From an uncultured Erysipelotrichaceae bacterium (lineage in GTDB: Bacteria; Bacillota_I; Bacilli_A; Erysipelotrichales; Erysipelotrichaceae), in assembly GCA_902793635.1 (NCBI GenBank), contig CADBEA010000017.1, positions 1-45,165 of the forward strand: a stretch of 45,165 nucleotides of DNA, read 5' to 3'. The stretch's first letter is position 1; each line of letters begins with the position of its first letter. Under the pieces are notes generated by a model. The model was given only the letters and a program-made list of their open reading frames with translations, did no database searches and was not told the origin of the DNA. The position numbers and the translations under genes were made by a program. Of the stretch, positions 27,197-32,111 are shown one piece after another.

Positions 27197-28579
27197 ATGG
27201 AAAAGAACGAAACAAGACCAACCGAAAACAAAATGGGCACCATGCCTGTTCTGCCGCTTCTGATGAATATGGCCATCCCGATGATGCTGTCATTCTTCAT
27301 CCAGGCTTTATATAACATTGTCGACTCGATGTTCGTCGCCCGGATCTCCGAAAACGCTCTGGCGGCTGTATCACTTGCTTTCCCGATGCAGCAGATCATG
27401 GGCGCGATCGGTATCGGCACCGGCGTCGGCATCAGTGCCAGCATTCCCCGCCGGCTGGCGAAGAAACAGCAGGACAGGGCGGATGAACTGGCCAATACTG
27501 GCATCTTCCTGTGCCTGTGCTACGTCGCAGTATTCGTCGTGCTGGGTCTGACCTTCGCACACCGTTTCTATGCCATGCAGACAATCGTGCCGGAAATCGT
27601 CGAGGGCGGCACACAATATCTTTCAATCGTCTGGATGATGTGCTTCGGCATGTTCTACGGCGTCCTCTTTGAAAAGATGCTGACGTCTTCCGGCTTTGCG
27701 TCCTATGCGATGCTTTCCCAGGCGAGCGGTGCCATCTTCAATATCATTTTCGACCCGCTGCTGATCTTCGGCCTCGGTCCTTTCCCGAAACTGGGCATTG
27801 CCGGTGCCGCCCTGGCAACGGTCATGGGACAGATCTTCGCGGCGGTGATCGCGTTCCTGTTCAATGCCCGGAAAAACCACTGGATCAGCTTCAGTCTGAG
27901 CGGTGTCTTCCATCCGGCCATGCGGGCTGTGAAGGAGATCTTCACGATCGGCTTCCCGTCGATGATCACAATGGGGCTTGCGTCCATGAGCTCGTTCTTC
28001 ATCAACCAGATCCTGCTGCAGTACAGCACGACAGCGACAGCGGTATACGGCATCTGGCTGAAACTGCAGAACTTCTGCTTCATGCCGGCCTTCGGTATGA
28101 ACAACGGCATGGTTCCGATCCTGTCCTACAATAACGGCACACGCCGCTATGACCGTGTCTGGGGAACGATCCGTTATGCCCTGACGATCATCCTGAGTCT
28201 GATGGTGATCCTGACCTGTGTCTTCGAATTCATTCCGAATACGCTGCTCGATCTCTTCAGCGCCTCCGACGCGCTCCGTGAGATCGGTCTGGTGGCCATC
28301 CGCACCTGTGTCATCTCTCTGACCTTCGGCGGTGTCTGCGTCATTCTCGGCTCCGCCATGCAGGCTCTGCGGCATGCCCGCTATGCCCTGATCGTCAACG
28401 TGCTGCGCGGCTTTATCATGCCGGTCGCATCCTTCTTCCTGCTTTCCGCACTTTTCCATGACGTCCTGAAAGTCTGGGGCGCGGTGCCGCTGGCTGATGC
28501 CACGGCGTGTCTTGCGGCAGTATATCTTTATCTGAAAATGAAAAAGGATCTGCTTGCTGAAGAAGAAGCAGATTCCTGA
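27197..28579 (+). CDS. MATE-family efflux transporter
   Basis: 460 residues with about 12 membrane segments, in the two-lobe arrangement of MATE (multidrug and toxin extrusion) proteins, which export organic cations, drugs or metabolites against Na+ or H+. Typical sequences are MAIPMMLSFFIQALYNIVDSMFV at the first helix pair and AALATVMGQIFAAVIAF in the middle. The substrate cannot be told. The ATG is 9 bases after AGAGG. It converges on a second, distantly similar MATE gene; they share the terminator region between them. Confidence 0.9.
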   Translation: MEKNETRPTENKMGTMPVLPLLMNMAIPMMLSFFIQALYNIVDSMFVARISENALAAVSLAFPMQQIMGAIGIGTGVGISASIPRRLAKKQQDRADELANTGIFLCLCYVAVFVVLGLTFAHRFYAMQTIVPEIVEGGTQYLSIVWMMCFGMFYGVLFEKMLTSSGFASYAMLSQASGAIFNIIFDPLLIFGLGPFPKLGIAGAALATVMGQIFAAVIAFLFNARKNHWISFSLSGVFHPAMRAVKEIFTIGFPSMITMGLASMSSFFINQILLQYSTTATAVYGIWLKLQNFCFMPAFGMNNGMVPILSYNNGTRRYDRVWGTIRYALTIILSLMVILTCVFEFIPNTLLDLFSASDALREIGLVAIRTCVISLTFGGVCVILGSAMQALRHARYALIVNVLRGFIMPVASFFLLSALFHDVLKVWGAVPLADATACLAAVYLYLKMKKDLLAEEEADS

Positions 28580-28594
28580 TTCGTGCATATCCTG

Positions 28595-28620
28595 AACCGG
28601 AGCAATCCGGTTTTTCTTTT
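28595..28620 (+). terminator. Terminator between the two converging MATE genes
   Basis: AACCGGA (28595-28601) pairs perfectly with TCCGGTT (28606-28612) across a GCAA loop, followed by a T-rich run. It mainly serves the plus strand. Confidence 0.85.
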
Positions 28621-29960
28621 TACGCTGTTCTGATCCGTTCCTGATAGATCCGGTAATACTGATACACATAGACCAGTGAACTCAGGAACCAGGTGATCGG
28701 ATAAAGCCAGCTGACGAAGGCGACGGAATGGAAGGTGTCACCCAGCAGCAGAATGGCAATGACTCTGACCGCGCACCAGCATATCAACATGACCGCCATC
28801 GGCACGACCGGCTTGCCAAGACCTCTCATGACTGAGGAAGTCACGTGCGAGAAGCCAAGCAGGAAGAAGAACAAAGAACAGATACGCGCTCGCAGAACGC
28901 CGTAGTAGATGACGTCGGGATCCTGAATGAACATGCTGATCAGCTGCGGTGCGAAGACATAGATGGCCACTCCGATCAGTTCAATCGATATCAGTGTGCA
29001 TACCGTACCGAAGCGGATGCCCTGGAAAGCCCGGTCTTCCTGCCTGGCGCCGATATTCTGGGAAACGAACGTCGTGAGGGCGATGCCGAAGGCGGTAACC
29101 GGCAGAAACATGAAGCCTTCGATACGGGAGTAGGCACCAATGCCGGCCATGGCATTCGGGCCGAAGGAATTGACATAGGCCTGGATCATCAGATTGGCGA
29201 AGTCAATGACGCATCCCTGCATGGCGGTTGGCAGACCGTAGGCGAAGATCTCTTTCAGAAAAGACGGATCGATCTTCAGTTTGGAAAGCATGATACGGCA
29301 GGCACCGTCGATATTCATCAGCCGGTAGCCGGCCAGAACCATGCTGATCAGCTGGGAAATGATCGTCGCCAGGGCGGCACCGTCGACACCCATATGGAAG
29401 ACAGTGATGAACAGCAAATCGAGAATGATATTGATGATTGACGAAGTGATCAGATAATACAGCGGATGGCGACTGTCACCGGATGCCTGCAGAATGCCGA
29501 CGAAGATGTTGTACATGACAAGTCCGGTCGATCCGGCAAAGTAGATGCGGACATACAGAGACGCATCATGGAATACTTCGGCGGGAATGCCGATCATCCG
29601 CAGCATCGCATCAGCTCCGAAAACACCGGCCACCGTCATCAGGATGGAGAAGCCGATTCCCAGCATGACCGCCGTATGCACTGCTCTTTCCGTGTTCGCG
29701 TCATTGCGGGCACCGATCTCACGGGCGATGATCACGCCGGAGCCGGAAGAAAAGCCGAGGAAGAAACCGATCAGCAGAAAGATCAGCGAACCGGTGGAAC
29801 TGACCGCTGCCAGGGCATGGCTGCCCAGGAAGTTGCCGACGATCAGCGAGTCAGCCGTGTTGTAAAACTGCTGAAAGAGATTGCCCAGAAAGATCGGCAG
29901 GGCAAAATATATGATTTTTTTCCGGTAGTCACCGGAAGTCATCAGAAGTTTTTCGTCCAT
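28620..29960 (-). CDS. MATE-family efflux transporter
   Basis: 446 residues with about 12 membrane helices. It has the MATE features PIFLGNLFQQFYNTADSLIV near the start and AALATIISQLISMVLAGYR in the middle. It is clearly related to, but not a recent copy of, the converging MATE gene. The start at 29960 is chosen because it lies only 8 bases beyond the -10 box TAGAAT, so the transcript would begin at or just before the ATG; no Shine-Dalgarno is present, so it may be leaderless. An alternative inner ATG lies six codons later. The substrate is unknown. Confidence 0.88.
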   Translation of the reverse strand: MDEKLLMTSGDYRKKIIYFALPIFLGNLFQQFYNTADSLIVGNFLGSHALAAVSSTGSLIFLLIGFFLGFSSGSGVIIAREIGARNDANTERAVHTAVMLGIGFSILMTVAGVFGADAMLRMIGIPAEVFHDASLYVRIYFAGSTGLVMYNIFVGILQASGDSRHPLYYLITSSIINIILDLLFITVFHMGVDGAALATIISQLISMVLAGYRLMNIDGACRIMLSKLKIDPSFLKEIFAYGLPTAMQGCVIDFANLMIQAYVNSFGPNAMAGIGAYSRIEGFMFLPVTAFGIALTTFVSQNIGARQEDRAFQGIRFGTVCTLISIELIGVAIYVFAPQLISMFIQDPDVIYYGVLRARICSLFFFLLGFSHVTSSVMRGLGKPVVPMAVMLICWCAVRVIAILLLGDTFHSVAFVSWLYPITWFLSSLVYVYQYYRIYQERIRTA

Positions 29961-29968
29961 ACAGGAAA

Positions 29969-29996
29969 ATTCTAGCAGTTTCGTTTCACAGTACAA
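29969..29996 (-). promoter_or_regulatory. Promoter of the minus-strand MATE gene, abutting its start codon
   Basis: TTGTAC (29991-29996) and TAGAAT (29969-29974) are 16 bp apart on the minus strand, with TGC directly before the -10 box. Only 8 bases separate the -10 box from the ATG. Confidence 0.55.
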
Positions 29997-30746: not shown

Positions 30747-31394
30747 ATGAAAAAACCACAGCTGAAGAAAATCGAAGCATTATTTGAAAACCGTTATGTC
30801 AATGTTTATGACCTCTGCTACGAAGACGGCAGGCACTACTACGACGCATCCCGAAGAAAGAAGGAGGATCTTGTCGCGGCAAAGGAAAAGCCGGAACTTC
30901 CCGATGCTGTATCGGCATTTGTCATCCTGCGCTGTCCGGATGGTGAGGAGCGGCTGCTGCTGTTCCATGAATACCGCTATCCGACCGGCCAGTATGTCCT
31001 GAGCATCCCGTCCGGTCTGATCGATGAAAAAGACAGGGACAGTGAGGATCCCGCCATGCACGCGATCCTGCGGGAACTGCGGGAAGAAACCGGTCTTGTG
31101 CTGAAGGAAGGGGACAGGGCGGAACTGATCTCGCCGTTTGTTTTCTGCACGCCAGGCCTCAGTGACGAAAGCACGGCCCTGATCGCCGTGCACGCCTCTC
31201 TCGACCAACAGCATCATCTTTCCCAGAGCGGTGCCGAGGGCAGTGAGATCTTTGACGGCTTTCAGCTGGTGACCAGAACAGAAGCCGCCGACATCCTGAA
31301 GAGGGGAACCGATGACAGCGGCATTCCGTATCCGCTGGTGACCTGGGCGGCGATGATGTATTTCATCAATCTTCCATCAAAAGCCGCGGAATAA
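30747..31394 (+). CDS. NUDIX hydrolase (ADP-ribose pyrophosphatase-like)
   Basis: 215 residues. The Nudix box lies in the middle: a Gly in PSGLID followed, after a short acidic insertion (EKDRDSED), by ILRELREETGLVL, which carries the REL-REETG metal-binding glutamates. The N-terminal beta-strands and the stretch FVILRCPDGEERLLLFHEYRYPTG resemble ADP-ribose pyrophosphatases, which split ADP-ribose or related nucleoside diphosphate compounds. The ATG at 30747 has no Shine-Dalgarno and lies 9 bases after an extended -10 box, which suggests a leaderless transcript. Confidence 0.88.
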   Translation: MKKPQLKKIEALFENRYVNVYDLCYEDGRHYYDASRRKKEDLVAAKEKPELPDAVSAFVILRCPDGEERLLLFHEYRYPTGQYVLSIPSGLIDEKDRDSEDPAMHAILRELREETGLVLKEGDRAELISPFVFCTPGLSDESTALIAVHASLDQQHHLSQSGAEGSEIFDGFQLVTRTEAADILKRGTDDSGIPYPLVTWAAMMYFINLPSKAAE

Positions 31395-31409
31395 ATTCCC
31401 GATTGGGGA

Positions 31410-31438
31410 TTGACGCTGTTTTTTCCGCCTGCTAATAT
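31410..31438 (+). promoter_or_regulatory. Strong promoter for the structured RNA region
   Basis: TTGACG (31410-31415), 17 bp, then TAATAT (31433-31438) preceded by TGC. Consensus-like -35, ideal spacing and an extended -10 make this one of the strongest promoter-like sequences in the window. Transcription would start near 31445. Confidence 0.7.
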
Positions 31439-31444
31439 AAACCT

Positions 31445-31690
31445 GCGCGGAAAAGTGCGCTGAAAAAGTAAATAAAACGGACATGTAAAACAGTGACTAT
31501 CAGGGAGATACCCTTGGTATGTCCTGTCGGCATGTCCGTTTTGTTTTCCCCGAAAACCGAATCTCACCCCAGGACGGTGCTTCCCGCCAAAGACAACCTG
31601 GTTAAAAAATGTTGGTCTGACACGCCGGAGCGCAGCGGGACTGAACGGATTTGAGCAAAGGGAGGCAGATAAGGACATGCCCTCATCTGA
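31445..31690 (+). ncRNA. Candidate structured RNA (leader or independent ncRNA) of unknown class
   Basis: There is no coding capacity worth accepting between the NUDIX stop and the next gene (312 bp), but there are many complementary segments behind a strong promoter. The clearest is a 12-bp perfect stem, 31474-31485 with 31531-31542, enclosing a smaller hairpin (ATACC 31508-31512 with GGTAT 31516-31520) and followed by GTTTT. A second domain pairs TCCCGC (31582-31587) with GCGGGA (31635-31640), with an inner AGACAAC/GTTGGTCT stem. TGCGCT (31456-31461) can pair with AGCGCA (31629-31634). GGACATGCC (31673-31681), just before the next ribosome binding site, can instead pair with GGCATGTCC (31529-31537). 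I do not recognise a known family and cannot say whether it is cis-acting or free. Confidence 0.5.
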
Positions 31691-31706
31691 CAAGGAGGAA
31701 ATGAAG

Positions 31707-32111
31707 ATGAAAAAGTTCAGCGCAAAAGAGTATTACAAAGATTTCACGATCACATCCATGAACTGGTCCGACCGGGCGGTTCATATCTGCTGGAAGCTTC
31801 CTTCCAAAAACATTCAGAGTGAATCCTGTCTTTACCGGCACCGTGACGGCAGCTGGCATCTCGATGGCGAATCCCGTCAGTACGGTATCCAGTTTGCCAA
31901 AGCCCTCAGCAGCCAGATGGCGCAGTTCTTCCTGTACCGGATCTGTCCGGCCGCCGAAGAACCGGAATACACCGGTCCGAGTGAGCTGGCGCGCATTGAG
32001 CGTCAGCTCAAAAGGGAAGACGAATACCGCCGGGCGGTGGAAAAGAAAAAGTCTGAGAAGCAGGACAAACCGCGGCGTATCAGTGCCTGGCACGCACCGG
32101 AATTGTTATAA
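31707..32111 (+). CDS. Hypothetical protein, charged C-terminus
   Basis: 134 residues that I do not recognise. The N-terminal two thirds look like a small alpha/beta domain with several aromatic residues (YYKDFTITSMNWSDRAVHICWKL; RHRDGSWHLDGESRQYG). From about residue 90 the protein is a highly charged, probably coiled helix (ARIERQLKREDEYRRAVEKK). There is no signal peptide or membrane segment. AGGAGG at 31693-31698 is 8 bases before the ATG at 31707; ATGs at 31701 and 31677 are in frame but badly placed. It lies directly behind the structured RNA region, so its expression may depend on that RNA. Confidence 0.7.
   Translation: MKKFSAKEYYKDFTITSMNWSDRAVHICWKLPSKNIQSESCLYRHRDGSWHLDGESRQYGIQFAKALSSQMAQFFLYRICPAAEEPEYTGPSELARIERQLKREDEYRRAVEKKKSEKQDKPRRISAWHAPELL

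Follow-up and report, generated by a model that had tools for sequence, protein, structure and literature searches.

Locus and gene order

The window analysed here, a stretch of 45,165 nt, is contig C17 of an Erysipelotrichaceae MAG, a gut bacterium of a genus near Solobacterium; among named relatives a Solobacterium MAG is the nearest. About 312 bp separate a NUDIX ORF (end 31394) from an ORF specifying a 134-aa protein, in agreement with the gene-free interval of about 310 bp described in the initial annotation. The features assigned to this interval and to the gene behind it are listed in Table 1. Elsewhere in the window two large transporter-like ORFs, MATE-type by eye, lie tail to tail at 27197–28579 (plus strand) and 28620–29996 (minus strand).

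Table 1. Features of the leader region and the downstream gene (positions in the window)
Feature	Position	Strand	Basis or remark
Sigma-70-type promoter, extended -10 (TTGACG, 17 nt, TAATAT; TG before the -10)	31410..31438	+	
Small GCGC stem-loop, 5' end	31445..31460	+	MFE fold
Hairpin 1, terminator-like: perfect 12-bp stem (31474-31485/31531-31542), inner stem, T-rich tail	31471..31548	+	
Conserved core domain (unnamed RNA), ~100 nt	31549..31652	+	conservation, covariance models
Pseudoknot helix A	31569-31573 with 31597-31601	+	middle pair covaries
Helix P, closing the core	31582-31587 with 31635-31640	+	CCCG/CGGG; first pair covaries
Possible helix C	31594-31597 with 31611-31614	+	invariant in 7 copies
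Helix D, loop CGGA	31623-31625 with 31630-31632	+	paired in 9/9
Shine-Dalgarno AAGGAGG	31692..31698	+	sequence; 8 nt 5' of ATG
134-aa protein, new small-protein family, motif LYRHxDGxWHxDxDS	31707..32111	+	conserved in 25 other loci

A protein search gave relatives at L033 (85%) and L034 (71%), and a DNA search of 70 genomes of the genus added copies at L037, L039, L040 and L041. All seven genus copies share the same order, that is, a hairpin with a U-rich tail, the core, a Shine-Dalgarno (SD) sequence and the gene; in each the core lies directly 5' of the same protein family and on the same strand, with a spacing of 105–117 nt between an internal mark in the core and the ATG. The window, L034 and L037 have in common the order NUDIX, RNA, protein and aldo/keto reductase. 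In L039 the core and the protein gene form a unit in a different gene neighbourhood.

Promoter, hairpin 1 and stability of the leader

The near-consensus promoter noted initially was recovered by a consensus scan and reads TTGACG-N17-TGcTAATAT. Its TTGAC and TGcTAA elements are kept in four of the six relatives (L033, L034, L037 and L039), and only TGCTA is kept in L040 and L041. We infer that transcription starts near 31445, downstream of this promoter. The GCGC repeat at the 5' end also occurs in L033, L034, L037 and L039 with differing letters. A long-range helix, TGCGCT with AGCGCA, had been proposed for this region; we abandon it as not conserved, since four of the seven genus copies have AGCGAA in the core strand, and the GCGC at the 5' end folds locally into a hairpin.

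The perfect 12-bp stem with its T-rich tail is as originally described. Stem and tail are found in all seven genus copies, a feature which, judged from the letters, is that of an intrinsic terminator or attenuator. Hairpin 1 has another sequence in L039, L040 and L041, yet the long stem and U-rich tail are kept.

The fold of the whole leader is better than that of 199 of 200 dinucleotide shuffles (z -3.6). For the core alone, each of the nine copies known to us (see below) gives z of about -0.3 to -1 against mononucleotide shuffles. The strong fold is therefore due to hairpin 1 and not to the core, and the description of the region as highly structured holds for the leader as a whole, whereas the core by itself is ordinary in stability.

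Conservation and distribution of the core

Downstream of hairpin 1 lies the second multi-stem domain that had been reported, and it is present as described. Its exceptional trait is conservation, not stability: its identity to L033, L034 and L037 is 98, 84 and 92%, respectively, compared with 84, 72 and 68% for the CDS and 71, 42 and 55% for the linker. A 39-base pattern found exactly these seven genus copies among 272 family genomes, and the reversed pattern found none. A covariance model of the core (R1), run over 315 genomes of the order, returned the seven together with two copies in a second genus (g50) at E of about 1e-5, R1 having been built without the two. A rebuilt model (R2) which included the g50 copies gave them E of 1e-17, partly by construction, and found no copies beyond the nine, either in 309 genomes of the order or in a sample of 395 from the class. 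Of about 310 genomes in the order, nine have the core, with one copy each; apart from the window's own genome they represent eight further species of the family. Neither the core nor relatives of the protein were found in phages, plasmids or viral contigs. Two other matches were set aside: L089 (E 0.007) falls inside a leucyl-tRNA synthetase-like ORF, and L042, a match of 24 nt inside an ORF, was attributed to chance.

One might suppose that the region holds an ordinary terminator-like hairpin and chance structure, nothing more, since hairpin 1 supplies the strong fold. This is already hard to sustain when core identity of 84–98% is set against 42–71% in the linker, and when the second-genus copies are recovered by a model that had not seen them; we give it next to no credence.

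The core was also considered as a protein-coding gene. No coding selection was detected in it (6–12 synonymous against 45–47 non-synonymous codon variants in every frame, on either strand), and this reading was rejected as no frame had a synonymous excess. Long ORFs which run through the core into the small protein in L034 and L037 were likewise discounted, the core frames differing between the two. The L034 example (L034:2815-3402, plus strand) starts from an ATG in hairpin 1 and continues in frame through the core into the small protein, a frame which is not conserved in the window.

Secondary structure and covariation

The nine-copy alignment (A7), which includes the g50 copies L087 and L088, is sequence-only. 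Helix P is part of the MFE fold of all nine copies. Its first pair is U-A or C-G across copies and its four inner pairs are standard in 9/9; L039 has a mismatch at one cell of this helix, and L087 and L088 lack its innermost pair. The middle pair of helix A is A-U, G-C or U-A, the other pairs being invariant within the genus. In L087 and L088 helix A is unpaired in A7, although by eye GUCA could be matched with UGAC.

Helix C does not vary among the seven genus copies and so carries no covariation signal. Base 31597 is common to helices A and C, and A therefore has four pairs if C forms. In L087 and L088 a helix C hairpin is obtained only with a shifted 3' strand. Helix D changes from C-G to U-G in these same two copies.

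A search for compensatory changes had been suggested as a check. Such changes are present in helices A and P, with one varying pair in each. The covariation score on the nine sequences exceeded that of all 500 shuffles, but the sequences are related, which can itself produce such a result, and for this reason we regard the support from covariation as moderate, not strong.

Comparison with known RNA classes

The region had been said to match no recognised RNA family, and the Rfam check proposed with that statement upholds it: the window has no match at gathering, and bacterial matches were lacking up to E 5. Rfam 15 over 31200–31900, again up to E 5, gave only chance-level matches to eukaryotic lncRNA and snoRNA. 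In the relatives only tRNAs were found at gathering, and a g50 copy gave none up to E 3. The initial comparison with 6S RNA appealed to a highly structured RNA following a strong promoter. It does not hold, since RF00013 has no match at 31410–31706 and a 6S candidate, the sole RF00013 match in this genome, scores 33.7 bits, short of the cut-off, and is located on a different contig. A type III toxin-antitoxin system was considered and rejected, the order being hairpin then core, with no tandem repeats by eye and with a protein that has no PADLOC, Pfam or PDB family match.

Pseudoknotted riboswitches, for example THF-I and preQ1-II, share with the core a compact 5' leader domain of ~100 nt that combines a junction with pseudoknot pairing and has unpaired bases which do not vary. 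Unlike them the window core has no Rfam match, stands after and not before a terminator-like hairpin, and precedes a gene without a known pathway. A conserved structured domain in the 5' leader, as expected of a riboswitch, is found in all seven genus copies and not in the g50 copies, the leader being presumably transcribed. As to an expression platform, the terminator-like hairpin is upstream of the core, and the pairing of the SD varies among copies; in the window the SD is partly paired in predictions, with pairing inconsistent across copies. For a riboswitch it is unusual that the core follows the hairpin, and since the core is 3' of this hairpin, it cannot control it in the usual riboswitch manner.

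Orphan structured RNA motifs have reportedly been collected in a comparative genomics study of 26 bacterial genomes. The core resembles such motifs in being a conserved intergenic RNA beside a gene of unknown function, found through conservation and modest covariation. A comparative genomics survey of 50 bacterial genomes also deals with orphan structured RNA motifs (PMC11109978); in its main text the sole Erysipelotrichaceae motif is idnO, located between manX and idnO, and Solobacterium, Bulleidia and Holdemania are not mentioned.

The 134-aa protein and its family

The 134-aa protein has no fit in Pfam, NCBIfam, PHROG or PADLOC. About 20 further family members, mostly in the genus, were recovered with a profile of the seven core-linked proteins. 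The wider family comprises proteins of 73–134 aa in Erysipelotrichaceae (L057–L079), with the motif LYRHxDGxWHxDPDT and frequently a C-terminal [TV]WFA; it was absent from 79 other genomes drawn from the class. An AlphaFold2 model (pLDDT 80.7) has a three-to-four-stranded sheet and a helix, followed by a loose basic tail. Two models compared with PDB and BFVD gave no confident match; the RnlA domain, AcrF10, SpoVG and PUR-like sheets were dismissed as fold matches, with VIA Z of 5.3 or less, in the chance range.

Identity between copies of the protein falls to 24%. The core-bearing proteins form one clade (96/98), and the core was therefore gained once there, or lost once elsewhere. This single clade and the strict linkage within the genus, together with the lysine/arginine-rich tail beside a compact beta-sheet/helix domain, would suit autogenous control, in which the basic protein recognises its own mRNA at the core (or at hairpin 1). 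However, the protein diverges strongly while the core remains much more alike, the residues conserved in core-bearing proteins are conserved in core-less relatives too, and the core is present in genomes where a family member was not found. We consider autogenous control unlikely.

Leaders of the core-less relatives

By eye, nearly all of the core-less members inspected have a promoter-like stretch and a hairpin 5' of the gene. The SD is in or at the 3' strand of the hairpin in about a dozen of these leaders, with z mostly from -3 to -7.5. In L057, L059–L062 and L079 the hairpin is followed by a separate SD, and in L058, L059, L060, L061, L064 and L079 z over the last 85 nt is unremarkable. 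The core was not detected in the core-less, hairpin-bearing loci L057–L062 and L079 with search filters off. The gene is preceded in L057, L059 and L079 by a small heat-shock ORF (Hsp20-like in translation, by eye).

These core-less leaders are similar to the SD-sequestering hairpins of RNA thermometers and translational attenuators, their long hairpins containing or adjoining the SD. In the window, by contrast, the hairpin no longer contains the SD, and the core stands between the two. Since a long hairpin which pairs with or adjoins the ribosome-binding site takes the place of the core in core-less relatives, regulation of the small protein through leader structure appears to be the ancestral state, to which the core would be a clade-specific addition.

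Copies in a second genus

In the two g50 copies (L087 and L088) the start of the core coincides with the stop codon of a 297-aa ORF without a known family, and about 450 nt separate the core from the next ORF. These copies lie in an apparent integrative element with an adjoining tRNA gene, and one of them is followed by a short hairpin and a T-run. The protein profile search listed no family member in the two g50 genomes. The element with the core-like RNA (L090:9505-9616, minus strand, and flanks in G211; L087 in G111) also carries a polyvalent-type ADP-ribosyltransferase domain.

The arrangement in g50 is not that of a 5' leader. These copies could be accommodated if the core were an autonomous small RNA acting in trans, either released from the mRNA by processing or transcribed together with it, and possibly forming an RNP with the small protein: two copies stand without the protein, one of them before the hairpin and T-run, and in the closest relatives the core changes more slowly than the adjoining protein gene. 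Nevertheless, no promoter or terminator of its own was recognised between hairpin 1 and the gene in the window, and its position and orientation ahead of the gene are kept in all seven genus copies. Because the core follows a hairpin, and because the g50 copies are unlike a 5' leader, we keep an autonomous RNA as a minority reading of appreciable weight.

The location of these two copies near a tRNA gene in an integrative element, and the unremarkable RNA stability of the core by itself, might also point to a DNA-level element, that is, a site of recombination, replication or transfer which is kept as sequence or as single-stranded DNA and not as RNA. Against this, the core has a constant place on the coding strand, with promoter/hairpin on one side and the gene on the other; furthermore there is one copy per genome, and no other signs of mobility were seen at the genus loci. 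We think it improbable.

A cis-acting leader as the favoured reading

The initial annotation left the choice between a cis-regulatory RNA and an independent ncRNA. The first is favoured, because the core keeps a constant position ahead of one protein family in all seven genus copies, across differing neighbourhoods; the second is kept alive by the two g50 copies. We also count in favour of the first the higher identity of the core than of the CDS in the three closest relatives, the lack of a synonymous excess, the two covarying pairs, the single clade of core-bearing proteins and the SD-associated hairpins of the core-less relatives; besides the g50 copies, the place of the core behind hairpin 1, the inconsistent SD pairing and the restriction of covariation to one pair per helix weigh against it. 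On balance we think it slightly more probable than not that the conserved RNA is a cis-acting 5' leader which controls the gene for the 134-aa protein.

If so, RNA polymerase starting at the presumed site would soon meet hairpin 1, which probably limits read-through by attenuation. Those transcripts that read through would hold a compact core in which helix P surrounds one or two small hairpins, and the strand upstream of helix P would pair into the interior as a pseudoknot. The end of the core is about 40 nt 5' of the ribosome-binding site. The many invariant unpaired bases in the core suggest that it may bind a partner which is constant between species, whether a metabolite, a conserved protein or a ribosomal component, and binding of this partner may alter expression of the downstream gene (the direction of control is presumed).

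More broadly, and tentatively, since we hold it somewhat less probable than its negation, this may be a new lineage-specific class of RNA, either a sensing leader or a modular RNA found also in an integrative element, paired with undescribed small basic proteins which are governed by leader structure throughout the Erysipelotrichaceae. The two copies in the integrative element would show that such an RNA is able to move as a module. If the leader is a sensor, it would be a riboswitch-like RNA that belongs to no Rfam class and precedes a gene which can readily be tested. Since some twenty natural variants of the leader are available for one small protein in the wider family, both the role of the protein and the signal sensed become directly testable.
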